Assembly: GCA_017524615.1 (NCBI GenBank)
Contig: JAFXVJ010000018.1
Span: forward strand, 1-64,000
Reading direction: 5' to 3'
DNA: 64,000 bases
Source: Clostridia bacterium
GTDB lineage: Bacteria; Bacillota; Clostridia; Christensenellales; Aristaeellaceae
Part shown: positions 6,871-16,388 of the stretch, piece by piece
Layout: every line of letters starts with the position of its first letter
How positions within the stretch are numbered: the stretch's first letter is position 1
Position numbers and translations under genes: made by a program
The notes under the pieces: generated by a model
Seen by the model: only the letters and a program-made list of their open reading frames with translations
Databases searched by the model: none
Told to the model about the DNA's origin: nothing

Positions 6871-7596
6871 TCAGCCGCGCTCGTTGTAATCGGCGGCCAG
6901 GTAGTTCATGGTTTTGCAGTACTTATGCATGTAGATGAAGGGCCCGACGATGATCAGCGAGCCCAGCACGCTCCAGAGCCAGAAATCGCTGGCGCCAAAG
7001 GAATAGGGCTGATTGCGCCGCTGCAGTTCGTTGCCCATTCTTGCGGACACCTTGTGATACCACACGATGGCCCCAATGCCGAGGGTGAGCGGCGCGATGA
7101 CGAAAATCAGCAGGCAGAAGTGCATCGTACGCTTGCCGTCGTAGCGGGAGGCGATGATGTTCAGGTTGTCCACCATCTTGGTCATGATGACCAGGCCGTA
7201 GATGCCGAAGGTGATCATGCTCAGTAGCAAGATCTTCCACATGCTGCGGTTGGTGGGCAGCTGCAGCGCGGGACGCTGGCCGTAGCCCTGATAGCCGTTC
7301 GGAATATTGGGATTCCCGTTGATCGGCTGCTGGTTGGGATCGAAGCCGCGGGTCTGCTGGTATCCGTCCTGCTGATAGCCGTTCTGCTGGTATCCGCCCT
7401 GCTGCTGATAACCGTTCTGCTGGTATCCGCCCTGCTGCTGATAACCGTTCTGCTGGTATCCGCCCTGCTGATAACCATTCTGCTGATAGCCGCCCTGCTG
7501 ATAACCGTTCTGCTGGTATCCGCCCTGCTGCTGATAACCGTTCTGCTGATAGCCGCCCTGCTGGTTATTGTTCTGGTTGTAGCCGTTCTGGTCCAT
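6871..7596 (-). CDS. DUF4234-like membrane protein with Q/N/G/Y-rich repeat N-terminus
   Basis: 241 residues. The first ~100 are a low-complexity array of GGYQQNGYQQ-type units, with no signal peptide. A hydrophobic C-terminal part follows, starting near SMWKILLLSMITFGIYGLVI, with further membrane segments (FCLLIFVIAPLTLGIGAIVW and the LGSLIIVGPFIY region). The ITFGIYG motif is typical of DUF4234; the shorter protein at 9805-10146 has two such motifs. Function is unknown. The repeat tail is probably cytosolic and intrinsically disordered, with a composition resembling prion-like or phase-separating segments (inference). It has its own promoter and shares its transcript with rubredoxin. Confidence 0.8.
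   Translation of the reverse strand: MDQNGYNQNNNQQGGYQQNGYQQQGGYQQNGYQQGGYQQNGYQQGGYQQNGYQQQGGYQQNGYQQQGGYQQNGYQQDGYQQTRGFDPNQQPINGNPNIPNGYQGYGQRPALQLPTNRSMWKILLLSMITFGIYGLVIMTKMVDNLNIIASRYDGKRTMHFCLLIFVIAPLTLGIGAIVWYHKVSARMGNELQRRNQPYSFGASDFWLWSVLGSLIIVGPFIYMHKYCKTMNYLAADYNERG
7340..7583 (-). repeat. In-frame tandem repeat encoding GGYQQNGYQQ units
   Basis: About eleven alternating 15-18 bp units built on CTGCTGATAACCGTT / CTGCTGGTATCCGCC (plus-strand reading). Unit number is likely to vary between strains through slippage. Confidence 0.85.
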
Positions 7597-7840: not shown

Positions 7841-8284
7841 TCAGGCCGGCTGCCAGTGACGCAGTTGCTTCAAATGATCGCGGTAATAGGTCCGGGCCTG
7901 GTCCGGGGGAAAGGCGCCGGAGGAAAAATGGTCGACCAGAAAATCCACCAGCGCGTCCAGGGTGGGGTAAGTGAATTTTCCGTCCGCGTAGCACCATTTG
8001 CAGTATTCCTCGTTGAAGGCGCCGTCCGTCTCCCGGCTGACGTTTTCATCCTCCAGGGGCATGCCGCAGCATTGGCAGAACAGCTGCTGCGGGCTGCCCA
8101 GCAGGGTGTTGATGGACACCTGAAAGAACTTGGACAGCAGCTTCAGCGTTTCAGCGTTGGGAATGGTTTCGCCGTTTTCCCAGCGGGACACGGCCTGGCG
8201 GGTCACATACAGCGCCTGGGCCAGTTCCTCCTGGGACAGGCCCTGTTTCGTGCGCAGGGACAGGATCACATCTTTCGTTTCCAT
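7841..8284 (-). CDS. XRE-family regulator with C-terminal zinc-ribbon domain
   Basis: 147 residues. Residues 1-62 form a Cro/C1-type helix-turn-helix (LSQEELAQALYVTRQAVSRW then NGETIPNAETLKLLSKFF). A CxxC pair follows (CQCCGMPL), with a second one (CKWCYADGKFTYP), giving a likely zinc-ribbon ligand-sensing or partner-binding part. It is probably a DNA-binding repressor; the target is unknown. It has its own promoter and terminator. It lies just beyond the last rubrerythrin-tail repeat and no such repeat follows it, so it may be the outermost member of the cassette array or its neighbour. Confidence 0.85.
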   Translation of the reverse strand: METKDVILSLRTKQGLSQEELAQALYVTRQAVSRWENGETIPNAETLKLLSKFFQVSINTLLGSPQQLFCQCCGMPLEDENVSRETDGAFNEEYCKWCYADGKFTYPTLDALVDFLVDHFSSGAFPPDQARTYYRDHLKQLRHWQPA

Positions 8285-8303
8285 ACTTCATCACCTCACC
8301 GGC

Positions 8304-8332
8304 AGTGTAGCACAGTCTATTTGGAAAAACAA
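8304..8332 (-). promoter_or_regulatory. Promoter of the XRE/zinc-ribbon gene
   Basis: Minus strand TTGTTT (8332-8327), 17 bp spacer, TACACT (8309-8304). The start codon is about 20 bp downstream, so the leader is very short. Confidence 0.65.
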
Positions 8333-8377
8333 GCAACGCTCTGTTGCCCCGGCGGGACGACAAAGCCGGCGCCCTAA

Positions 8378-8409
8378 CGCCGGACGACCGAATCAACAGT
8401 CATCCGGCG
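8378..8409 (-). terminator. Hairpin downstream of rbr-tail copy J
   Basis: Arms CGCCGGATGAC and GTCGTCCGGCG with one mismatch. There is no strong T-run, so it is a terminator candidate only. Its position directly behind a tail repeat matches copies A, B, C, E and H. Confidence 0.45.
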
Positions 8410-8420
8410 AGATCTTTTCT

Positions 8421-8472
8421 TCCTTCCCACACTGTCTTTTCCGCAGCTCCATGCATGCTTTGCCCGGCGTCT
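8421..8472 (-). repeat. rbr-tail repeat, copy J (most degenerate)
   Basis: On the minus strand it aligns to copy G at GCAAAGC, the GC-TGC-GGAAA block and the terminal GGAAG-AA. It starts 21 bp after the stop of the gene at 8494-8865. Confidence 0.5.
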
Positions 8473-8493
8473 CGGCTGACCTGAAACCGGCCG

Positions 8494-8865
8494 TTAAAAC
8501 GGCGCTGCGCCGCCCCATGCGGTAACGTCGTAAACCAGGGCGTGCGCTTTTCCGGGATGATCCGGAACGTAATACACATCCACCGTTTCTCCCAAATGCG
8601 ATTCCATCGCTGCCCGGCTCATGCCGGAATCCCCGGATTTAAGCGTGTAATGAGCGCCGCCCACCGTATAGCTTATCACCCAGTAATCGAAGCAATCGCA
8701 CTTCCTGTCGCCTTGACAGAATTTGACGTCACTGATTCTCCCTTTTGTGGTCTCTGTTGCATTGTCACGTATCTTTCGTTTTAACCGATGATTGATCACA
8801 TTCGATACGATAACGATGACAAGCAGCGCCACAAAGCATACGACCCCGAAAAGATCACTACGCAC
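8494..8865 (-). CDS. Small membrane protein with DUF3592-like domain
   Basis: 123 residues, GTG start at 8865 preceded by AGGAGG. One N-terminal membrane helix (LFGVVCFVALLVIVIVSNVI) is followed by a soluble part with the pattern of DUF3592: ISYTVGGAHYTLKSGDSGMS, then GETVDVYYVPDHPGKAHAL. That domain is widespread, of unknown role, and usually sits outside or at the membrane face. The protein is similar in design to the one at 10585-11034 in the same array. Single gene, followed by rbr-tail copy J. Confidence 0.7.
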   Translation of the reverse strand: MRSDLFGVVCFVALLVIVIVSNVINHRLKRKIRDNATETTKGRISDVKFCQGDRKCDCFDYWVISYTVGGAHYTLKSGDSGMSRAAMESHLGETVDVYYVPDHPGKAHALVYDVTAWGGAAPF

Positions 8866-8983
8866 TTCTCTGTGCCTCCTCTGTCAAGAAATGAGTTAAG
8901 TGCGAAGACGCATCATTGAATCGGCCCCATAACAGAAAAGGGTGAGGCCTGGCAGCATTGCCCTTCCACATGAGAAACCTGAA

Positions 8984-9028
8984 GCATTTCCCAAAACACC
9001 CATCCGGCAGCCCCATGCGTGCGGGGCT
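8984..9028 (-). repeat. rbr-tail repeat, copy I (internally deleted)
   Basis: Minus strand GCCCCGCACG…GGGGCTGCCGG…TTTTGGGAAATG. It begins on the base directly after the stop codon of the XRE gene 9029-9562. Shorter than the other copies. Confidence 0.6.
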
Positions 9029-9562
9029 TCAGCGTATCCCGTGCTCCTGCATGGATTTCAAAAGATAATCCCTTGCCTTGCTGGGTGGAAGATGGGATTC
9101 CACATCCCGCGGATCAACATAATCGCCGTTTCCTATGCACGCCAGCAGAAATTCGATGGTGAACACATCGAAAATGTGAGGATCGGAAAAGGACGCTTCG
9201 ATGGCGGTATTCATGCGCGCGTTCAGCGCATCGATGACGCATTGGTAGATAAAATGATCCCGGCCCAGAAGCTCGCCGATGCGATCCAGCGAAGACAGCG
9301 CTTCCTGCATCTGGGCGACCGTGATATGCCTGCGGAAGCCGCCGCACCCCGCGCCGCCGGACAGGATGGTGTCGACGGAGCAGTGCAGTGCGTCGGCAAG
9401 ATCCAGCAGGATCGAAACGTCGGGAATCGTTTCGCCCCGTTCCCAGTTGGATACGGCCTGCGGGCTGACGTTCAGCTTTTCGGACAGCTCAGACTGCGTC
9501 ATTCCCATTTTCTTGCGTTCCGTCTGCAAAAATGATCCCATTCGTTTTGCATTCAGATTCAT
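9029..9562 (-). CDS. XRE-family transcriptional regulator
   Basis: 177 residues from ATG 9562, chosen for its GGGAGGGATTC ribosome binding site. Residues 8-70 are a Cro/C1 helix-turn-helix (MTQSELSEKLNVSPQAVSNW, then ERGETIPDVSILLDLADAL). The remaining ~100 residues form an unrecognised helical C-terminal domain that could sense a ligand or multimerise. A TATAAT (minus strand, about 25 bp upstream of the ATG) is a plausible -10. Sits as a single gene between rbr-tail copies H and I. Confidence 0.85.
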   Translation of the reverse strand: MNLNAKRMGSFLQTERKKMGMTQSELSEKLNVSPQAVSNWERGETIPDVSILLDLADALHCSVDTILSGGAGCGGFRRHITVAQMQEALSSLDRIGELLGRDHFIYQCVIDALNARMNTAIEASFSDPHIFDVFTIEFLLACIGNGDYVDPRDVESHLPPSKARDYLLKSMQEHGIR

Positions 9563-9655
9563 TTTGAATCCCTCCCTTTTGACATCATTATATCTGGACG
9601 TGGAACAAATGAAAAGGGATGGATGCTTGATTATTCGGAGAAAAAAACAAGCGGC

Positions 9656-9692
9656 AATTAAAAACGAAGCGGCCGGCCACACAGCCGCTTCG
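9656..9692 (-). terminator. Terminator behind rbr-tail copy H
   Basis: Minus strand GAAGCGGC / GCCGCTTC stem with a ten-base loop, followed by GTTTTTAATT. Confidence 0.75.
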
Positions 9693-9703
9693 CATAAACG
9701 CAT

Positions 9704-9750
9704 TGCTTCCCGATGCGCCTTTCCGGCAGGGCAGGCTTTGCCGCGGCGGG
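9704..9750 (-). repeat. rbr-tail repeat, copy H
   Basis: Minus strand CCCGCCGCGGCAAAGCC, CTGCCGGAAAGG, CATCGGGAAGCAA. It contains a CGGCA/TGCCG hairpin. It lies 54 bp after the DUF4234 gene stop and is followed by a terminator. Confidence 0.7.
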
Positions 9751-9804
9751 ATTCTCATGGTGATTTCCGTTCACGGATTGCCCTTGTAGTACGCTGCCTG
9801 ATCC

Positions 9805-10146
9805 TCAGGCGTTGGCATGCTTGTTGATTTCGCTTTGTGCAAGACAGCTGTTGATAATGCTGAAGCCGATCAGCGCGATAATGAGGTACAGGAGCCCCGT
9901 GTTTCCGTTTTCGGTGCCCTTCATTTCATCAACCTTGGCGCCCAATTTGTAATTCCAGTAGATGGAATAAATGCCGAAGGTGATCAGGGTGAACAGAAAA
10001 GCCTTTCCTCCGCTTGCGGTGGCGTTTTTCGGCGCCAGCGCGTTGGATTCGTTCGTCATGACTACAAACCAGTAGATGCCATAAATGCCGAGGGTAACGA
10101 TGGACAGGATCACACAAACGGGGATGCTGCGGTTTTTGATTGTCAT
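9805..10146 (-). CDS. DUF4234 family membrane protein
   Basis: 113 residues with three predicted membrane helices: VCVILSIVTLGIYGIYWFVV, then AFLFTLITFGIYSIYWNYKL and LLYLIIALIGFSIINSCL. The twice-repeated LGIYGIYW / FGIYSIYW motif is the DUF4234 hallmark. Cytoplasmic membrane protein of unknown function. Ribosome binding site GGAGG lies before the ATG. Related to the C-terminal half of the protein at 6871-7596, suggesting the family was acquired or duplicated more than once here. Single gene between tail copies G and H. Confidence 0.8.
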   Translation of the reverse strand: MTIKNRSIPVCVILSIVTLGIYGIYWFVVMTNESNALAPKNATASGGKAFLFTLITFGIYSIYWNYKLGAKVDEMKGTENGNTGLLYLIIALIGFSIINSCLAQSEINKHANA

Positions 10147-10221
10147 TTCAACTGACCTCCTGTTTATTCTTTTGAATTCTTGTTAGGTTTGTTTCCGTAC
10201 TGTGACGGTATTTGACCGTTC

Positions 10222-10274
10222 TTACTTCCTGAAATGCCTTTCCGGCAGGCTCTTGAAAGCTTTGCCATGCCGGG
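10222..10274 (-). repeat. rbr-tail repeat, copy G
   Basis: Minus strand CCCGGCATGGCAAAGC…GCCTGCCGGAAAGGCATTTC, ending GGAAGTAA. It contains a perfect CCGGCA/TGCCGG plus GGC/GCC hairpin. Starts 19 bp after the stop of 10294-10518. Confidence 0.8.
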
Positions 10275-10293
10275 ATTTGCCGGGTGAAACAGA

Positions 10294-10518
10294 TTAGTCT
10301 GGTTTGTATGTTCCCTCGAAACCGCATTGATCGCAATGGTATTTCAGCTTTTTTCCTTTATGCATGGATTTGGCGATTGCCAGGCCAATTAGACCGAAAG
10401 CTCCCTGAATAACTGCCTGTTTACCGCGGCTCATCTCATTGTCGGAAGGATCGTTCAGGCAGCGCCAGCCTTTTTCTTCCCCGCATTTTGGACAGGCAAA
10501 CGGAGCGTTTTTCATCAT
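10294..10518 (-). CDS. Small zinc-ribbon protein with hydrophobic centre
   Basis: 74 residues with two CxxC pairs, CPKCG near the start and CDQCG near the end, expected to form one zinc ribbon. They bracket a short hydrophobic stretch (AVIQGAFGLIGLAIAKSM) that may be a membrane segment or a core helix. No known function. Two adjacent ATG codons follow GGAGG, and this ribosome binding site lies against the end of rbr-tail copy F, so the repeat boundary and the gene start abut. Confidence 0.65.
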   Translation of the reverse strand: MMKNAPFACPKCGEEKGWRCLNDPSDNEMSRGKQAVIQGAFGLIGLAIAKSMHKGKKLKYHCDQCGFEGTYKPD

Positions 10519-10527
10519 AAACCACCT

Positions 10528-10575
10528 CCAGAAATATCTTTCCGGCAGGCCCTTGAACGCCTTGCCGTGCTGCTT
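10528..10575 (-). repeat. rbr-tail repeat, copy F
   Basis: Minus strand AAGCAGCACGGCAAGGCGTT, GGGCCTGCCGG, GATATTTC. It contains a CGGCA-GGC / GCC-TGCCG hairpin. Starts about 9 bp after the stop of 10585-11034; its end overlaps the next gene's ribosome binding site. Confidence 0.8.
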
Positions 10576-10584
10576 TGTGTACTG

Positions 10585-11034
10585 TCATTTGCTTTGTTCC
10601 CAGGGGAATTCTGCCCAGGCGGTTTTCGGATCATTCGGGTCATAGTGAACGGTCACGGATCTGTTGACATACTGTTTTGCATTCGTCCCGAACTTGAGGC
10701 GTATATACTTGGTGATCTGGTATTCCTGCTGGTCTACACGATAACTGATTCTGAGCCGCCAGCCGTTGTCTGTGTCATACTCATCCCCGGCGAGCTGCTT
10801 TTTGGCGCGAGTAATGATACCGGATGTCTGAGCAGTAGCCTTCTGCCTGATATGTGCCGTGTGCTTTATACCATATATGGCCAAAGAAGCAAATAAGGCA
10901 AGCACCCCAACCGCTATCAGCATGGCAGATCTTTCATCTTTATACATGATACCGCGGACAATCGGCACGACGAAAACAGATACCAATAAAAGCCCGCTCA
11001 AGACAGTAAATACCGTCGTCAATACTTTTTTCAT
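10585..11034 (-). CDS. Membrane protein with DUF3592-like domain
   Basis: 149 residues with two N-terminal helices (VLTTVFTVLSGLLLVSVFVV and SAMLIAVGVLALFASLAIYG). A soluble part follows with the DUF3592 pattern: LRISYRVDQQEYQITKYIRL, then VNRSVTVHYDPNDPKTAWAE. Probably membrane-anchored; no known activity. No good ribosome binding site is visible before the ATG. Same architecture as 8494-8865 with an extra helix. Single gene between tail copies E and F. Confidence 0.7.
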   Translation of the reverse strand: MKKVLTTVFTVLSGLLLVSVFVVPIVRGIMYKDERSAMLIAVGVLALFASLAIYGIKHTAHIRQKATAQTSGIITRAKKQLAGDEYDTDNGWRLRISYRVDQQEYQITKYIRLKFGTNAKQYVNRSVTVHYDPNDPKTAWAEFPWEQSK

Positions 11035-11136
11035 AGCAGAACCGGCGTTCGTATGAAATCATGGAATTCAGAATTCCACAATCTGTCAACAGATTGAAAG
11101 CTCGCTGCCTTTCCTATTCTCGCCTGGGATAGGAAA

Positions 11137-11157
11137 TGTGACGGGAAATCCCGTCGC
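11137..11157 (-). terminator. Hairpin behind rbr-tail copy E
   Basis: Minus strand GACGGG-ATTT-CCCGTC followed by ACATTTCC. Short stem; possible terminator. Confidence 0.45.
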
Positions 11158-11168
11158 ATGCTTGAGGA

Positions 11169-11221
11169 TTACTTCCCGAAATACCGCTCCAGCAGACCTC
11201 TGAAGGTTTTTCTGCCGGACG
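11169..11221 (-). repeat. rbr-tail repeat, copy E
   Basis: Minus strand GTCCGGCAGA…CTTCAGAGGTCTGCTGG, then AGCGGTATTTCGGGAAGTAA, which is nearly identical to the end of the rubrerythrin gene. Hairpin arms here are GCAGA…ACCT and AGGT…CTGC. Confidence 0.85.
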
Positions 11222-11232
11222 ATGTTTGATGT

Positions 11233-11394
11233 TTATTGTTTCTTTTTATCTGTCCGAATGAAAGCAATGATTCCGGCTGCTCCTATGAGCGCACAGGCAA
11301 TAGCTCCTGCGACTGTTCCGCTGATGATACATACGACTACGCCTGCCAAAAAAAGAACCACGATTGCCCAGAACCCAACAGATAGGTTTTTCAT
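11233..11394 (-). CDS. Very small two-helix membrane protein
   Basis: 53 residues: MKNLSVGFWAIVVLFLAGVV, a short turn (SGTVAG), a second hydrophobic helix (AIACALIGAAGIIAFI) and a basic end RTDKKKQ. AAAGGA lies upstream of the ATG. It is the smallest gene of the array and sits alone between tail copies D and E (a unit of only about 250 bp). No recognisable family. Small double-helix proteins of this sort can be toxins, regulators of larger membrane proteins, or neutral; sequence alone does not decide. Confidence 0.6.
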   Translation of the reverse strand: MKNLSVGFWAIVVLFLAGVVVCIISGTVAGAIACALIGAAGIIAFIRTDKKKQ

Positions 11395-11415
11395 CGATGG
11401 AAATCCTTTCAGCTT

Positions 11416-11525
11416 TTACTTCCCGAAGTACCTCTCCAGCAGGCCCTTGAAGGCTTTGCCGTGCCTGGCTTCGTCCCTGGCCATTTGTGGGGCTACGCCC
11501 CACAAGGGCATGCACGGTGTCATGG
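11416..11525 (-). repeat. rbr-tail repeat, copy D (longest, with small insertion)
   Basis: About 110 bp of rubrerythrin 3' sequence. In the rbr frame it reads IHDTVHA, then [21 protein letters not shown] split by a short insertion, and ends in TAA. A 22 bp palindromic segment (GTGGGGCGTAGCCCCAC core) interrupts it where rbr has GTGCATGAAATGG. It looks like the remnant of a longer rbr copy. Confidence 0.85.
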
Positions 11526-11674
11526 ATGGTAGGCGGGCAGAAAACCTTCCACATCAACTATTTTAAGGCTTGCGGCACTTCCTGTCAAGATTGATTGTTT
11601 GTTCATTCTCAGCCGAAAATTCACTTCTTCAAAAGCCTTTTGACAGAATAATTGTCAGAAGGGATTTGGAAAGT

Positions 11675-12142
11675 ATGGCTAACACACCAAGTTCGCAGGT
11701 CTACCAACTGAAAAATGGACGATGGGCTTTCAGATTCAGCATCAGCGTGAATGGGAAACAGATTTCCAAACGCGGTAAAACTGATCTGGACGGCAACCCT
11801 CTCTTGTCAAGAGCAGACGCTACCAAGGCGCGGAAGAAGGCAATCAAGATGGCGCAGCTTGCGCCGCTGCTGCCAGAGAAGAAGCCTGAACCCATCAAGA
11901 GAACCGTGCGTGACGTGTTCAAGGAATACCGTGAAAAAGGATGCAGTGACCGCGCCTACGCCACCATCCGTAAGCAGGATTCTCTCTGGAAGAATCATCT
12001 GGATGCTGCCTTCGGGGACAGAATCATTGATGAAATCCCAACAGCAGACGTTGTTGACTACCTTGCCAAGCTGTACTACGATGACGGCTTCGCTTTTCGG
12101 TATTTCGAGAGCTTCATCAAGGTTAGCAAGAGATACGAATGA
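11675..12142 (+). pseudogene. Tyrosine recombinase (phage-type integrase), N-terminal fragment
   Basis: 155 residues from ATG 11675. Residues 1-65 resemble the arm-binding domain of conjugative-transposon/phage integrases (YQLKNGRWAFRFSISVNGKQ, ISKRGKTD). Residues 72-150 resemble the SAM-like core-binding domain (TVRDVFKEYREKGCSDRAYA, RIIDEIPTADVVDYLAKLYY). The catalytic domain with its R…HxxR…Y residues is absent: the frame stops about 230 residues short of usual integrase length and is followed at once by a terminator. It is the only plus-strand gene in the array and lies between rbr-tail copies D and C. Probably an inactivated integrase of an element that once inserted here. A deliberately short DNA-binding protein is less likely. 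Confidence 0.75.
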
Positions 12143-12146
12143 CAAA

Positions 12147-12180
12147 AGCCTGCGGTTACAAGCGCCGCAGGCTATTTTGT
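12147..12180 (+). terminator. Terminator after the recombinase fragment
   Basis: AGCCTGCGG / CCGCAGGCT stem (12147-12155 with 12164-12172), then ATTTTGT. Confidence 0.75.
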
Positions 12181-12227
12181 AAAGGAAAGGTGATTGACAG
12201 AAAATTTCGCTACACCTACAATATTTT

Positions 12228-12300
12228 TTGTCAGAGGTTTTTGTCAGAAGCACTTTGGCAAAAGATGCGAAAATTCATGATTGTCAGAAGAATTGTCAGA
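12228..12300. repeat. TTGTCAGA direct repeats, possible integrase arm sites
   Basis: Four copies of TTGTCAGA at 12228, 12241, 12281 and 12293, with a fifth at 11652 just before the integrase start and a TTGACAGAA variant near 12194. Clustered short direct repeats flanking an integrase gene are typical of arm-type attP sites; the role here is inferred. Confidence 0.55.
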
Positions 12301-12310
12301 GCCCGAGGGA

Positions 12311-12346
12311 TAAAAAGAGGAGTGACACCCATCACAGGTCACTCCC
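12311..12346 (-). terminator. Terminator behind rbr-tail copy C
   Basis: Minus strand GGAGTGAC / GTCACTCC stem followed by TCTTTTTAT. A second small hairpin (CCCCGCGCAGCGGGG, 12354-12368) lies between it and the repeat. Confidence 0.7.
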
Positions 12347-12371
12347 CAGAAAGCCCCGCGCAGCGGGGATT

Positions 12372-12425
12372 TCATTTCCCGAAATACCGCTTGAGCAGCC
12401 CAGCGAACGCATTGCTGCGCCGGGC
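12372..12425 (-). repeat. rbr-tail repeat, copy C
   Basis: Minus strand GCCCGGCGCAGC…TTCGCTGGGCTGC, then TCAAGCGGTATTTCGGGAAA, identical there to rbr; it ends in TGA instead of TAA. Begins on the base directly after the stop codon of 12426-12917. Contains a GCAGC/GCTGC hairpin. Confidence 0.9.
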
Positions 12426-12917
12426 TTACGCCTTAATCCCGCGCGATCGCAAAACATACCAGGCAGGGCAGCGGAAAGCGTCCCATTCGATCGTCACTTG
12501 ACCGAAGGAAAACCTGACCTCAAAGTAGGGCTCTTCTCCGCAGCCGGACAGAACCCATTCGCCGGAATCGGCTTGCGCTAAGGCGTAGACCCAGATTTCA
12601 TACTTGGCCTCGCGCAGAAACAGCGCAATGGCTTCGTCGCCTGTATACGTCTTGATCGGCTCTGTGGGGCAGGAGTTCCCCGAAGCATCGGTCGTCCAGG
12701 CCATATCCGGTTCATAAGCAGCCAGTCGGAACCCCGTGAAGGAGACGCGCGCGGTTTCAATTTCCATGTCGCAGCTTTCAGGATTCTGCGGCGCGTGCTG
12801 AAGCAGATTCAGCGCTTTTACTTCAAATGAAACGGTCGCGGAACTGTGGTCCGCCAACCTCCACATGGAATCGTGATACTCAAAATCCCGCAAACTGTCA
12901 ATGGAACGAAAGCGCAC
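12426..12917 (-). CDS. Hypothetical soluble protein
   Basis: 163 residues from GTG 12917 (VRFRSIDSLRDFEYHDSMWR), chosen for the AAAGGAG seven bases upstream; an in-frame ATG further upstream falls inside the preceding terminator and repeat. No signal peptide or membrane segment. The protein is rich in beta-strand patterns (SATVSFEVKALNLLQHAP, VSFTGFRLAAYEPDMAW, EPYFEVRFSFGQVTIEWDAF). No family recognised. Single gene between tail copies B and C with zero spacing from its stop codon to the repeat. Confidence 0.65.
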   Translation of the reverse strand: MRFRSIDSLRDFEYHDSMWRLADHSSATVSFEVKALNLLQHAPQNPESCDMEIETARVSFTGFRLAAYEPDMAWTTDASGNSCPTEPIKTYTGDEAIALFLREAKYEIWVYALAQADSGEWVLSGCGEEPYFEVRFSFGQVTIEWDAFRCPAWYVLRSRGIKA

Positions 12918-12944
12918 TGCGTCGTCTCCTTTCGCCGGGATTGT

Positions 12945-12971
12945 CAAATGTGGCGGGAAGCCCCGCCACAC
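12945..12971 (-). terminator. Hairpin behind rbr-tail copy B
   Basis: Minus strand TGTGGCGGG-GCTT-CCCGCCACA followed by TTTGAC. Strong stem, weak T-run. Confidence 0.6.
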
Positions 12972-12980
12972 GATGGATGA

Positions 12981-13034
12981 TTATTTCCCGAAATACCGCT
13001 TGAGCAGTCCGGCAAACGCCATGCTGTGCCGGGA
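12981..13034 (-). repeat. rbr-tail repeat, copy B
   Basis: Minus strand TCCCGGCACAGCATGGCGTT, TGCCGGACTGC, then TCAAGCGGTATTTCGGGAAA and TAA. The last 27 bp equal the rbr end exactly. Begins directly after the stop codon of 13035-13691. Confidence 0.92.
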
Positions 13035-13691
13035 TTAGTGAACATTGATCAATGCTTTTATCATATCAGCCCGTTCCTGCGTGCTGTAAATCATCATCAC
13101 TATCTGATCCAATTCATGGGAGATAACATACAGCCGATTCGGGCAGCCTTCCTTTTCCAACACTTCATTCATGAAATCCAGAATGTTCATGTTGATCCAA
13201 TCACCCCAGCTTTCCAATTCAATGGAATAAGGATGATTGTTGCATACAAAAGATACGGATCGTTTTCCATCGGTCTGCATCCATTCCCAGGTTTCGGAAG
13301 GAATCATTTCATCCGTCAGCTGAGACAGATCTTCCTGAATATCTGATATGACCACATCAGGCACAATGGACTGAACGCCCTGCAAAAACAGCGTATACAT
13401 GCGCGCGATATCGAAAACCTCGGCGTCAAACGCATAAACCTGGCTGGACTTGGGCGTCCATTCTCCTGTATCATAATCGTAATCACCCATGCCAAGATTC
13501 AGCAGAATATCAAACATCGTTTGATTATCGCTTTCATATTTACTTTGGAACATCTGCTTGATCTGGTCTGGGATGCTTGGATTGGCGGCTGTCTCAGACA
13601 TAAAAGCAGTGGTTTGATTTTTGATCTCCAGAAGGATCTGATCGTCTACGTCAAATCCTAACTGGCGAAGTTTTTCGATGGCTGAACTCAT
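13035..13691 (-). CDS. Hypothetical protein
   Basis: 218 residues from ATG 13691 with AGGAGATTAATGGG upstream. Acidic and soluble, no signal peptide. Begins MSSAIEKLRQLGFDVDDQIL and contains a long acidic middle (YDTGEWTPKSSQVYAFDAEV). No family recognised. It reads lower in GC than the housekeeping genes and has more AT-rich codons, which fits recent acquisition. It lies between the intact rubrerythrin gene and tail copy B, so in an insertion-at-rbr model it would be the youngest cassette. Confidence 0.7.
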   Translation of the reverse strand: MSSAIEKLRQLGFDVDDQILLEIKNQTTAFMSETAANPSIPDQIKQMFQSKYESDNQTMFDILLNLGMGDYDYDTGEWTPKSSQVYAFDAEVFDIARMYTLFLQGVQSIVPDVVISDIQEDLSQLTDEMIPSETWEWMQTDGKRSVSFVCNNHPYSIELESWGDWINMNILDFMNEVLEKEGCPNRLYVISHELDQIVMMIYSTQERADMIKALINVH

Positions 13692-13800
13692 CCCATTAAT
13701 CTCCTAAATCAACATTTGCCGTGATACAGTAAGTGTTCGTGACGCACAGAATCAACAGAAAGATTATCATACTTTTTAACCGCATACTGAACCGAACGAA

Positions 13801-13838
13801 ACTGGGCACGATGATATTTCGCAATCATCGTGCCCAGT
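13801..13838 (-). terminator. Terminator of the rubrerythrin gene
   Basis: Perfect 15 bp stem ACTGGGCACGATGAT / ATCATCGTGCCCAGT with an eight-base loop, five bases after the stop codon, then TTTCGTT. Confidence 0.85.
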
Positions 13839-13843
13839 GTTGC

Positions 13844-14386
13844 TTATTTCCCGAAATACCGCTTGAGCAGGCCAGCGAAGGCCTTGCCGTGACGGGCTTC
13901 GTCTCTTGCCATTTCATGCACGGTGTCGTGGATGGCGTCCAGGTTCAGGGCTTTCGCTCTCTTGGCCAGATCGGTCTTGCCGGCGGTGGCGCCATTCTCG
14001 GCTTCCACGCGCATTTTCAGGTTCTTTTCGGTTGAGTCGGTCAGCACTTCGCCCAGCAGCTCCGCGAATTTCGCGGCATGCTCGGCCTCTTCAAACGCTG
14101 CGGTCTTCCAATATTCGGCGATTTCGGGATAACCTTCCCGGGCAGCCACGCGGCCCATGGCCAGGTACATGCCCACTTCACTGCATTCACCCTGGAAATT
14201 GGCCCGCAGATCGGCCAGAATATCCTCCGGCACGCCCTGTGCCACGCCCACCACGTGCTCCGCCGCCCAGGTCATTTCCGCGTCCTGCTTGGTGAACTTG
14301 CTGGCCGGCGCCTTGCAAACCGGGCACCTTTCCGGGGGCTGCTCACCTTCATATACGTAACCGCAAACCTGACATACCCACTTCAT
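13844..14386 (-). CDS. rbr: Rubrerythrin with N-terminal rubredoxin domain (reverse rubrerythrin type)
   Basis: 180 residues from ATG 14386 (AGGAGG upstream). The rubredoxin-like iron site comes first (CQVCG at 5-9, CPVCK at 21-25) and a ferritin-like diiron domain second, with carboxylate/His ligands in GECSE (67-70), EEAEH (99-103), AEN (129-131) and DEARH (162-166). This domain order is that of the clostridial reverse rubrerythrins, which reduce hydrogen peroxide and oxygen with NADH-derived electrons. Cytosolic oxygen defence. Monocistronic by its terminator. Its last 53 bp (residues 164-180 plus stop) are the parent of the tail repeats found after eight further genes downstream. Confidence 0.93.
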
Positions 14387-14467
14387 GGAAAAAACCTCCT
14401 TTTCAAAATAGATCAAGTATTGCTCACGCCGCGGTATGGCGGCGTCAGGAACGTGAGAGAGGGAGAA

Positions 14468-14806
14468 TCAGCGCCCGTAGCCGTCCAATTGCCGGACGAA
14501 TTTATCCAGAAACGCTTCTTCCCCAAAGGTGTTGATTTTGAAAAACATGGCTTGGCTGCCGCCTGCCGTGACGGCTGAAAGGCTCACATCCCCATCGCGG
14601 CCAAACAGCGTGACGCTGAGACTGAGCCGGTTACCGCCCAGATAGCTGTACCGCTCGTAGACTCGGGTAGCGCAGCGGACGTCACCGCAGGTGAAATCGG
14701 TTCCGCCCTCCCGGCTGGCGGACAGGCTGCCTTGCATGACCGATTGGTCGATGTAGGAAAGCAGGGCGGAAAAACCTGTGTTGAAATGCTGCGTATGCTG
14801 TGCCAT
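14468..14806 (-). CDS. DUF6054 family protein
   Basis: 112 residues, good GAAGGAGG ribosome binding site. Conserved pattern recalled for DUF6054: N-terminal FNTGFSALLSYIDQSVMQGS, then CATRVYERYSYLGGNRLSLS and GGSQAMFFKINTFGEEAFLD. Small soluble protein, function unknown. It follows thrC by 100 bp on the same strand. Family name is from memory and moderately certain. Confidence 0.65.
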   Translation of the reverse strand: MAQHTQHFNTGFSALLSYIDQSVMQGSLSASREGGTDFTCGDVRCATRVYERYSYLGGNRLSLSVTLFGRDGDVSLSAVTAGGSQAMFFKINTFGEEAFLDKFVRQLDGYGR

Positions 14807-14906
14807 AAGAAACCCTCCTTCCGCTCTCTGGCGGCCTCATGATCGCCGGCTCTTCCAGGCCGCGCAGGGAACAGGCGCCGCCGTGCCGCGCAAGAAGGCC
14901 GATGCG

Positions 14907-16388
14907 TCACTCCGTAAACCCGGCCAGCACCGCTTCGCCCATCCGATCCTTTTCGCAGATCCGGGTGTGCAGCACGGGCAGGGAACGCAATTGCGCCACC
15001 TGATCGGGGGCGGGAACGCGCGTGACCGCTTCCAGTGCCTCCGCGGCGGCGAAAGCGTCGTCCGTCACCGGCACCTGAATGGCGGCGGCCACATCGGCGG
15101 CGAATTTATAGGGGCTGGCGGTGGATACCACCAGCATCGGCGCTTCGTCCCCGGTTTCCTTCCGGTAATCCTCCGCCACGCTGAAAGCCACGGCGGTATG
15201 GGGATCGGTGAGGCAGCCCTCCTCCCGCCACAGGCGGGCGATGGCGACGGCGGTGCGCGCGTCGTCGGCACAGCCGCCATAGAAAACGTCTTTCAGCATG
15301 GCTTTCTGCTGATCGGTGATTTCATATCGGCCGTCCCGTTTCAGGCTGTCCATCCAGGCGGTTACCTGGGCGGTGTCGCCCTGCGCCAGCTCCCACAGGA
15401 AGCGCTCCAGATTGGAAGAAATCAGGATGTCCATGGAAGGGGACATGGTTTTATGGAAAGGCCGGCGGCGGTCATACACGCCGGTGCGGATGAAATCGGT
15501 GAGCACGTCGTTTTGGTTGCTGGCGCAGATCAGGCGGCGGATGGGCGCGCCCATGCGGCGGGCGTACCAGGCGGCCAGGATGTTGCCGAAGTTGCCCGTG
15601 GGCACGCAGACGTTGACGCCCTCCTCCCAGGTGATTTCGCCCCGGGAAAGCAGATCCGCGCAGGCGGAGAGATAATACGCCACCTGCGGCGCCAGCCGGC
15701 CCAGATTGATGGAATTGGCGGAGGACAGGGTTTTGCCCATTCTGTTCATTTCCGCAATGAAATCCGGGTCGCCAAACAGGGCCTTCACGCCGGTCTGGGC
15801 GTCGTCGAAGTTGCCCTTCACCGCGGTGACGTGCACGTTGCGGCCCTGGGAAGTGACCATCTGCCTTTCCTGTACGGCGCTGACGCCGCCCAGGGGATAG
15901 AACACGTTGACCGATGTGCCCGGCACGTCCCGGAACCCCTCCAGGGCGGCCTTGCCGGTGTCGCCCGAGGTGGCGGTCAGGATGGCGATTTCCCGGGTTT
16001 CGCCCTGCTTGCGGGCGGAGGCGGTCATCAGCCGGGGCAGAAACTGCAGCGCCATATCCTTGAAGGCCATGGTGGGCCCGTGGAACAATTCCAGCACGAA
16101 ACGGCGGCCCGCCAGCTTTTTGACCGGGGCGACCGCCGGATCGGCGAACCGGGAATAGGCCGCCCGGGCCATGGGCAGCAATTCTTCTTCCGTGAAGCCG
16201 TCCAGCATGAGGCCCAGCACGCGGGCCGCCCGGGCGGGGTACGCCATCGCGGCCAGCGCGTCAAAATCCGCCCGGGCCAGGCCGGGAAGCGAAACAGGAA
16301 TATAAAGCCCGCCGTCGGGGGCGATGCCGCGCACGATGGCTTCAGGCGCGGATACAGGCCCGCCGCCCCGGGTGCTGATAAAAGCCAT
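14907..16388 (-). CDS. thrC: Threonine synthase
   Basis: 493 residues, normal length for the fold-type II threonine synthase of Bacillota and proteobacteria. PLP lysine is K110 in HGPTMAFKDMALQ, preceded by the N-terminal ISTRGGGP motif. Phosphate-binding and cofactor regions ATSGDTGKAALEGF and VPTGNFGNILAAWYA are intact. Converts O-phospho-homoserine to threonine in the cytosol. No other threonine-pathway genes (hom, thrB) are adjacent. Start ATG with GGAAGGAG upstream; 21 bp separate it from the upstream P-loop gene. Confidence 0.95.
   Translation of the reverse strand: MAFISTRGGGPVSAPEAIVRGIAPDGGLYIPVSLPGLARADFDALAAMAYPARAARVLGLMLDGFTEEELLPMARAAYSRFADPAVAPVKKLAGRRFVLELFHGPTMAFKDMALQFLPRLMTASARKQGETREIAILTATSGDTGKAALEGFRDVPGTSVNVFYPLGGVSAVQERQMVTSQGRNVHVTAVKGNFDDAQTGVKALFGDPDFIAEMNRMGKTLSSANSINLGRLAPQVAYYLSACADLLSRGEITWEEGVNVCVPTGNFGNILAAWYARRMGAPIRRLICASNQNDVLTDFIRTGVYDRRRPFHKTMSPSMDILISSNLERFLWELAQGDTAQVTAWMDSLKRDGRYEITDQQKAMLKDVFYGGCADDARTAVAIARLWREEGCLTDPHTAVAFSVAEDYRKETGDEAPMLVVSTASPYKFAADVAAAIQVPVTDDAFAAAEALEAVTRVPAPDQVAQLRSLPVLHTRICEKDRMGEAVLAGFTE

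Follow-up and report, generated by a model that had tools for sequence, protein, structure and literature searches.

Most likely an integrase family has made the end of the rubrerythrin gene a dock for single-gene cassettes in Clostridia

Behind the rubrerythrin gene rbr of a Clostridia bacterium (family Aristaeellaceae; contig JAFXVJ010000018.1 of assembly GCA_017524615.1), small genes stand in a row, separated by copies of the last ~50 bp of rbr. We analysed this array in the first 64,000 nucleotides (nt) of the contig, hereafter called the window, and in related genomes. Loci (L) and genomes (G) carry our own numbers, the host genome being G000. Overall, the probable explanation is that the end of rbr serves as an attachment site, that the units of the array were inserted there, and that integrases of one family exchange them in trans. 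Most likely, this integrase family has made the end of rbr a cassette dock.

The platform gene rbr, which serves in oxygen defence, encodes a rubrerythrin of 180 amino acids (aa; 13844..14386, minus strand; Pfam RUBY_RBDX 1.8e-15, Rubrerythrin 1e-13), and its final ~28-52 nt (13844-13895, minus strand) form the putative insertion site, as delimited by the empty-site comparison described below. Copies of this end, hereafter called “tails”, start at 12981, 12372, 11416, 11169, 10522, 10222, 9703, 8984, and 8420, all on the minus strand like rbr, whose own tail starts at 13844. An ungapped matrix was built from rbr and the six best copies, which are tails B (12981..13032, 65.4 bits), C (12372..12423, 66.9 bits), D (11416-11467, 69.9 bits), E (11169..11220, 55.6 bits), F (10522..10573, 59.3 bits), and G (10222..10273, 62.2 bits). 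These seven score 55.6-70.5 bits, partly by construction, while the best of 113,898 background positions (both strands of the window outside 8001-15000) reaches 13.7 bits. Plain identity to rbr separates the six copies too, with 37-50 of 62 bases as compared to at most 33 elsewhere. The three distal tails are weak in the matrix. Tail H (9703..9754, 12.1 bits ungapped) requires a gap in its alignment, and tail I (8984..9035) scores 13.8 bits; both were accepted because the matching cassette, which encodes an XRE-type regulator, has clear tails at both boundaries in two other genera (three-way alignment with L183 and L191). Tail J (8420..8471, 22.2 bits), the final recognised tail, was assigned only by its score and position.

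The earlier note, made from the window alone, had counted nine same-strand copies downstream of rbr, and the count holds with six strong and three weak tails. Its unit length of about 250-950 bp agrees with the tail-to-tail spacing of 247-956 bp, and eight units indeed have a single open reading frame (ORF) just before the tail, with the stop codon -7 to 50 nt from it. The ninth unit, from 12372 to 11416, contains an opposite-strand integrase fragment, which that note had overlooked, instead of an ORF in the rbr direction. The terminator-like hairpins reported behind most copies did not reappear: an array-strand hairpin lies close behind two of the ten tails (9703 and 8420). Behind rbr and tail 12372, the hairpin scan, which found 13 hairpins in the region as compared to 6.6 expected, placed a hairpin whose T-run sits on the other strand.

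How do these units come to lie behind rbr? In L131, rbr is followed by no further tail in the next 2.2 kb, and the sequence after its stop codon corresponds to the flank behind the final tail of the two-cassette locus L130 (87.9% over 281 nt). Likewise, the cassette-free flank of L121 is found again behind two final tails, that of L185, from another genus (80.1% over 1,496 nt), and that of L117 (82.6% over 92 nt). The final tails of L182, L198, and L203 are followed by the terminator of L131 (92-98% over 61-63 nt). L139 and L190 fit this pattern over 75 nt, a pair that was excluded since the L139 contig stops 181 nt behind rbr. Therefore, the units sit inserted between rbr and the native flank, and the final tail is the displaced native end of rbr. 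At the level of sequence, these comparisons show that each unit holds one or two genes, closes with a copy of the site, and lies between rbr and its native downstream flank, where the units pile up mostly in the rbr direction. The smallest displaced end, that of L130, is only 28 nt long. In L130, L182, and L198, rbr ends in GGC-TAA, while the final tails of these loci retain GGC-AAG-TAA; therefore, the insertion replaced the last codons of the host rbr.

Next, we compared all of the units with each other. The same cassette occurs in different hosts, often end to end, with different neighbours and in a different order. Unit 1 of L007 and unit 1 of L179 are 99.4% identical over 313 nt, whereas the host rbr genes, compared without their final 60 nt, are 71.8% identical. 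The upstream tails of this pair have seven differences up to position 35 and are identical from position 36, and the downstream tails differ by one base through the end of the stop codon and are unrelated beyond it. The unit is likewise closer than rbr in L183 and L191 (95.6% vs 84.1%), which also share what follows, in L119 and L184 (94.0% vs 71.2%), where the cassette is a mosaic inside the gene, and in L178 and L185 (90.3% vs 77.8%). The same holds for the window compared with L181 (82.4% vs 75.1%) and with L183 (82.6% vs 73.5%). Single cassettes have evidently moved between species and genera, as judged by these identities. The near-identical unit in distant hosts and the empty-site pairs support the idea, put forward in the earlier note, that incoming cassettes insert at the 3′ end of rbr and either carry the tail with them or restore it.

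The integrase fragment of the ninth unit leads to a candidate enzyme. It is the N-terminal part of a tyrosine integrase, encoded opposite to rbr (11570..12142, plus strand); its Phage_int_SAM_3 match (2.7e-4) is just under the Pfam cut-off, the catalytic domain is missing, and it is 49% identical to residues 2-147 of a 404-aa integrase from G005. The latter is intact (L136; Phage_integrase 2.8e-16) and adjoins a displaced rbr tail, with rbr itself outside that stretch. The solved structures nearest to it by sequence are 6en0, 6emz, and 6emy, entries named Int protein. A search of 200 genomes of the family returned ten matches in eight genomes at E <= 1e-20, and eight of the ten fetched integrase loci have a tail near the integrase; L221, which has none, seems to hold the remaining part of a gene divided between two G079 contigs. 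Whole elements lie between rbr and the displaced tail in L174 (~18.8 kb) and L175 (~10.5 kb), with the integrase adjoining the displaced tail. Their genes include what we take, from sequence rather than a family scan, to be type I restriction-modification-like and ArdC-like genes. The element in L129 has genes in common with them, and no integrase was seen in it. These loci show, as far as sequence comparison reaches, that larger elements with an intact arm-binding-type tyrosine integrase occupy the same site as the cassettes, with the integrase gene beside the displaced end. Such integrases are the usual type on mobile elements, according to the part of PMC8138268 consulted.

Unit 3 of the window and unit 2 of L183 are shrunken versions of these elements, with both ends and an integrase stub. 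In the window, the left end consists of tail C, followed by a hairpin and arm-like repeats (12228-12300), and the right end is tail D with an rbr-like extension (11416..11535, minus strand), which is broken by a ~20-nt palindrome, and an arm-like repeat at 11652. The two ends have 17 9-mers in common in L174, 16 in L175, 11 in unit 3 of the window, and 4 in unit 2 of L183, as compared to 0.6-0.9 in shuffles, and we infer that these represent arm-type sites. The large elements of L174 and L175 resemble integrative and mobilizable elements (IMEs) in having an integrase beside one end and site copies at both, which the single-gene cassettes do not. As a separate observation, a palindrome of ~20 nt (GTGGGGC...GCCCCAC type) lies in or beside rbr-like sequence before the displaced tail at three integrase-side ends of different genomes, namely at ~11485-11510 in the window, and ahead of the displaced tails of L174 and L188.

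How widely are these arrays distributed? Tail matches, counting that of rbr itself, occur in 24 of the 29 genomes of the genus. By our own sorting, 51 of these 58 matches share a contig with rbr or a displaced tail and 7 lie elsewhere, two of the latter above 30 bits. In the family, 141 of 200 genomes match the tail model and 62 have two or more matches (E <= 0.001 with Infernal's stricter filters), counts of two or more, here and below, being able to include second rbr genes. In an order-wide sample of 248 genomes (E <= 0.0001), 8 of the 110 matching genomes outside the family have two matches. Four of these eight were inspected, and a cassette was recognised only in L225, from another family, whose contig opens with a tail followed by a relative of cassette 1 of the window (46.5%) and another tail. 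L226 and L228 have rbr and a second tail, and L227 has two tails, with the remainder of rbr outside the fetched stretch. Among 80 named rbr loci, the best 80 of at least 592, cassettes were recognised in four (L007, L008, L012, and L014); the first screen had missed L008, and in four of the 80 less than 200 nt were available downstream of rbr.

Upstream of rbr, many relatives conserve thrC and a 112-aa gene, and the downstream content differs. The same tail is found behind rbr with different cargo, as the earlier note had anticipated, and the gene order, whose fixity would have told against it, varies between relatives. The ordinary dispersed repeat that it had named as the other reading was rejected: in the 2.55-Mb host assembly (81.6% complete), all seven matches to the tail model lie within the array, and only the 7 of 58 genus matches mentioned above lie away from rbr and displaced tails. 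A plain tandem duplication of rbr was likewise rejected; it applies to L040 and to parts of L177, which were not counted as cassettes for this reason, and L043 is a 30-bp tandem copy. In L040 (10001-11380), from a Pseudoflavonifractor isolate, the second copy is a near-identical rbr core joined to the end of a part that, by eye, resembles a flavin reductase and a rubredoxin.

A few tails were seen at other places. In L199 (1520-1830, G022:C32), far from rbr, a transglycosylase-associated-like cassette gene stands behind a tail, apparently an insertion at another site; L179 and L014 contain related units. Two tails stand alone away from rbr, one in L201 (4612-4663, G211:C10), near the usual rbr neighbour thrC, and one in L224 (471-522, G013:C88). 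In L176 (1540-10617), the 9 kb between two tails carry transporter and metabolic genes and give no match to the integrase described here; this locus was not used as evidence.

We propose the following mechanism for the formation of the arrays. The final ~28 nt of rbr would constitute the chromosomal attachment site, although the copies retain up to ~52 nt or more. A circle with one site would recombine with the rbr site by a conservative exchange of strands, at a point around positions 35-40 of the 52-nt tail. The newest cassette would then adjoin rbr, replace its last codons, and be readable from the rbr promoter. The integrases of the element family may catalyse this exchange in trans for the core-only cassettes, which is the weakest step of the proposal. 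The array in the window would have arisen by repeated insertions, including that of one integrase element, which subsequently shrank to its two ends and a stub. A partial dyad lies near the presumed exchange point. Placed by hand, its seven pairs form in 79.9% of cells, as compared to at most 61.9% for slid versions; in pairing and covariation score it is no better than shuffles, and it has 4 two-sided pair changes as compared to 1.7 in shuffles (6 of 500 reach this number).

Several observations weigh against this mechanism. Arm-binding integrases normally require arm sites, and the cassettes have no arm-like repeats: the remnant motif TTGTCAGA occurs five times in the 64 kb, each time within integrase unit 3. 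Good integrase matches (8 of the 200 family genomes, E <= 1e-20) are far rarer than arrays (62 with two or more tails), and no tail lies within the ~1.5 kb retrieved on either side of the integrase of L220 (G099:C13). G000 has two further tyrosine-recombinase genes elsewhere, and the genus gives many weak matches. When the 23 shared-unit pairs were re-paired, the halves linked to the cassette gave 0.08 (right, upstream tail) and 0.02 (left, downstream tail) and the other halves 0.31 and 0.51, which is the predicted direction, though a weak signal from pairs that are not independent. The position of the crossover rests mainly on one near-identical pair. In L180 and L188, the tail that follows the shared cassette seems to belong to the locus and not to the cassette, a hint of gene conversion or of a different junction. 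The tails also slightly favour the rbr of their own locus (mean rank 0.58-0.67, where 0.5 means no preference), and together with L180 and L188 this points to gene conversion on top of the insertions. No cassette-bearing circle, phage, or plasmid was found, a phage collection being outside the search. In viral_contigs, the integrase search gave three pattern stretches, none of them a relative, and one tail pattern gave no match by exact matching, which misses variants; the plasmid search gave one record, beneath a feature annotated as NADH peroxidase. Finally, most of the genomes are draft metagenome-assembled genomes, in which assembly errors at repeats are possible.

Which other processes could have built such arrays? 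A different recombinase, either the host XerC/XerD or another tyrosine recombinase, might move the cassettes by acting on their core-only sites, much as happens with Acinetobacter dif modules, and we consider this a possible but rather unlikely alternative. The absence of arm-like repeats from the cassettes, the 28-nt displaced tail with its partial dyad, the excess of arrays over integrases, and the two further tyrosine-recombinase genes of G000 would all suit such an enzyme. For a comparison with dif, a Firmicutes dif pattern (<=3 mismatches) was run on 29 genomes; it matched twice, as often as its reversed control, and the host dif was not recognised in them. Against such an enzyme, the sole recombinase seen to adjoin the tails repeatedly is of the arm-binding type.

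Accretion followed by decay, in which integrase elements inserted repeatedly and eroded, leaving the single genes as immobile left-overs, is improbable. The integrase remnants with both ends inside the arrays of the window and L183 speak for it, and the large-element genes of L129, with no integrase seen, are in line with it. It is strained by the exchange of single units: a 313-nt unit is nearly identical in hosts with divergent rbr genes, and shared units differ in neighbours and order from host to host. In addition, nearly all of the rbr-strand units stop close to the tail (61 of 65 within 60 nt), and the scan of 27 cassette proteins gave no match to any recombinase or transfer family (Pfam, E <= 0.001).

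RecA-dependent homologous recombination between rbr tails, without any site-specific enzyme, is more improbable still. It would account for tails that are sometimes more alike within an array than the cassette age suggests (L180 and L188), for the mosaic inside the L119/L184 cassette gene, and for the slight own-rbr preference. However, the homology covers ~50 nt and is often only ~80% identical, and hosts that share cassettes keep their ~72% identical rbr genes up to the tail, whereas homologous exchange would be expected to enter rbr; furthermore, the integrase elements use the same site. The idea that the tails are functional 3′ elements for RNA stability or termination, copied behind small genes, can be dismissed even though they lie directly behind ORFs, as they have no consensus fold, also bound integrase elements, and are followed in the empty-site pairs by the native flank behind the final tail.

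The units themselves are small. In 40 loci picked for having several tails, and therefore not a random sample, 74 of the 79 bounded units span 181-1009 nt (median 443.5); this table omits the multi-tail loci L129, L174, L175, L176, L177, and L187. The best ORF lies on the rbr strand in 65 of the 74 short units, and the remaining 9 have no better rbr-strand ORF according to a scorer based on codon use and ribosome-site heuristics, which overlooks cassette genes whose codons are unusual. The Pfam scan took in 27 cassette proteins (8 + 10 + 9, the first 8 from the window). Their families include nucleotidyltransferase/HepT, nucleotidyltransferase/HEPN, and DUF4160/DUF2442 pairs, as well as a glyoxalase-like protein, a NUDIX protein, and a transglycosylase-associated membrane protein, and several have no match. 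Two-gene units with a nucleotidyltransferase and HepT/HEPN recur in differing order in L185, L178, and L179; toxin-antitoxin cassettes likewise recur in integrons.

In the window, the eight cassette ORFs lie on the minus strand. Cassette 1 (13035..13691, 218 aa) has no Pfam or NCBIfam match, and relatives of its protein occur in other genera and another family (L212, 80%; L194, 49%; L182, 43%; L225, 46.5%, tail-bounded). Cassette 2 (12426..12971, 163-181 aa) has no family match; in another genus, unit 2 of L181 shares 82.4% nucleotide identity with it over 551 nt. Cassette 4 (11233..11394, 53 aa, in a 196-nt unit) aligns over 184 nt, at 83.2% nucleotide identity, with the sequence that follows the second tail in L014. 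Cassettes 5 (10585..11034, 1.6e-7) and 9 (8494..8865, 8e-7) encode DUF3592 proteins. Cassette 6 (10294..10518) encodes a zinc-ribbon-like protein of 74 aa with weak matches, whose counterpart directly behind rbr in L012 is 76% identical. Cassette 7 (9805..10146) encodes a DUF4234 protein (1.2e-36) that is 83% identical to one in L205, from another genus, and cassette 8 (9029..9562) encodes the XRE-type regulator (HTH_3 2.3e-17), which is 89-90% identical to proteins behind rbr in L191 and L183, from two other genera. The names given to this cargo in the first reading were confirmed, with DUF3592 found twice, DUF4234, an XRE-type helix-turn-helix protein, and a weakly matching zinc ribbon. Downstream of the array, a further DUF4234-like gene (6871-7596, minus strand) starts with short in-frame Q/G/Y/N-rich repeats (7402-7596).

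How do the rbr arrays relate to known systems? Integrons are the textbook route by which bacteria collect single genes, and the array had initially been likened to their attI and attC sites. Part of this analogy stands. The units are small, mostly single-gene and mostly on the same strand, each ends in a recombination site, they are exchanged singly, and toxin-antitoxin-like pairs and glyoxalase-like and NUDIX proteins are among their cargo. The hairpin-forming attC and the attI platform do not stand: RNAalifold predicted no pairs for 43 rbr tails, and the cassettes dock at the coding 3′ end of rbr, behind thrC and the 112-aa gene in many relatives, rather than at an attI beside a recombinase. 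The recombinase at the rbr site is an arm-binding phage-type integrase on separate elements, and the 404-aa integrase scores 18.3 bits against the integron integrase model TIGR02249 (cut-off 265), so that it is not IntI. None of the 200 family genomes was positive in a scan with this model, and the 14 control genomes likewise gave no positive. An integron proper was rejected on the missing fold and the low score of the 404-aa integrase.

The dif modules of Acinetobacter are described, in the parts of PMC6449649 and PMC13141974 consulted, as small gene modules with short recombination sites and no recombinase of their own, which are shuffled between replicons. The rbr cassettes are similar in being small units bounded by short sites and lacking a recombinase. 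They differ in that their site is the end of a chromosomal protein gene and that the tails of an array all point the same way.

Islands and IMEs that integrate at gene 3′ ends with accretion include SGI1 at trmE (PMC8409611 and PMC2297512, in part) and streptococcal integrative and conjugative elements and IMEs (PMC7168690, in part). There too, integrase elements restore the gene, leave direct repeats, and stack in tandem, and the elements of L174 and L175 are of such a kind. In contrast, the rbr units span 181-1009 nt with one or two genes, which leaves little room for a recombinase or arm sites, and they form arrays of up to nine units that are traded singly between genera. Staphylococcal cassette chromosome (SCC) elements at rlmH, inserted at its 3′ end by Ccr serine recombinases, and tycheposons at tRNA genes are also stacked elements marked by repeated gene ends, but they have other target genes and much larger units. 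The target here is rbr rather than rlmH (Ccr itself was not searched for), and the open-access literature search found no paper on rbr as a target of this kind. Nor did the open-access PMC literature yield a description of rbr as an insertion site or of such an array, subscription papers and preprints being outside its scope.

The large elements are of an ordinary kind; the novelty lies in the one-gene units, in how many there are, and in their exchange between genera. If the proposal is true, an ordinary integrase site at a gene end can give rise to cassette collecting, independently of integrons, and the arrays provide a ready list of small mobile genes in uncultured gut Clostridia, among them toxin-antitoxin-like pairs, regulators, membrane proteins, and unknowns. 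Since whole elements, shrunken elements, and one-gene units occur at one site, this may be a place to observe a cassette arising from a larger element. On balance, we lean towards regarding the rbr arrays as a third natural gene-cassette system beside integrons and dif modules, present in an order of gut Clostridia, in which a phage-type integrase or another enzyme would act in trans on core-only sites, the coding end of rbr, a housekeeping gene, would serve as both dock and promoter, and the cassettes would be traded between genera and, judging by cassette family, between families.

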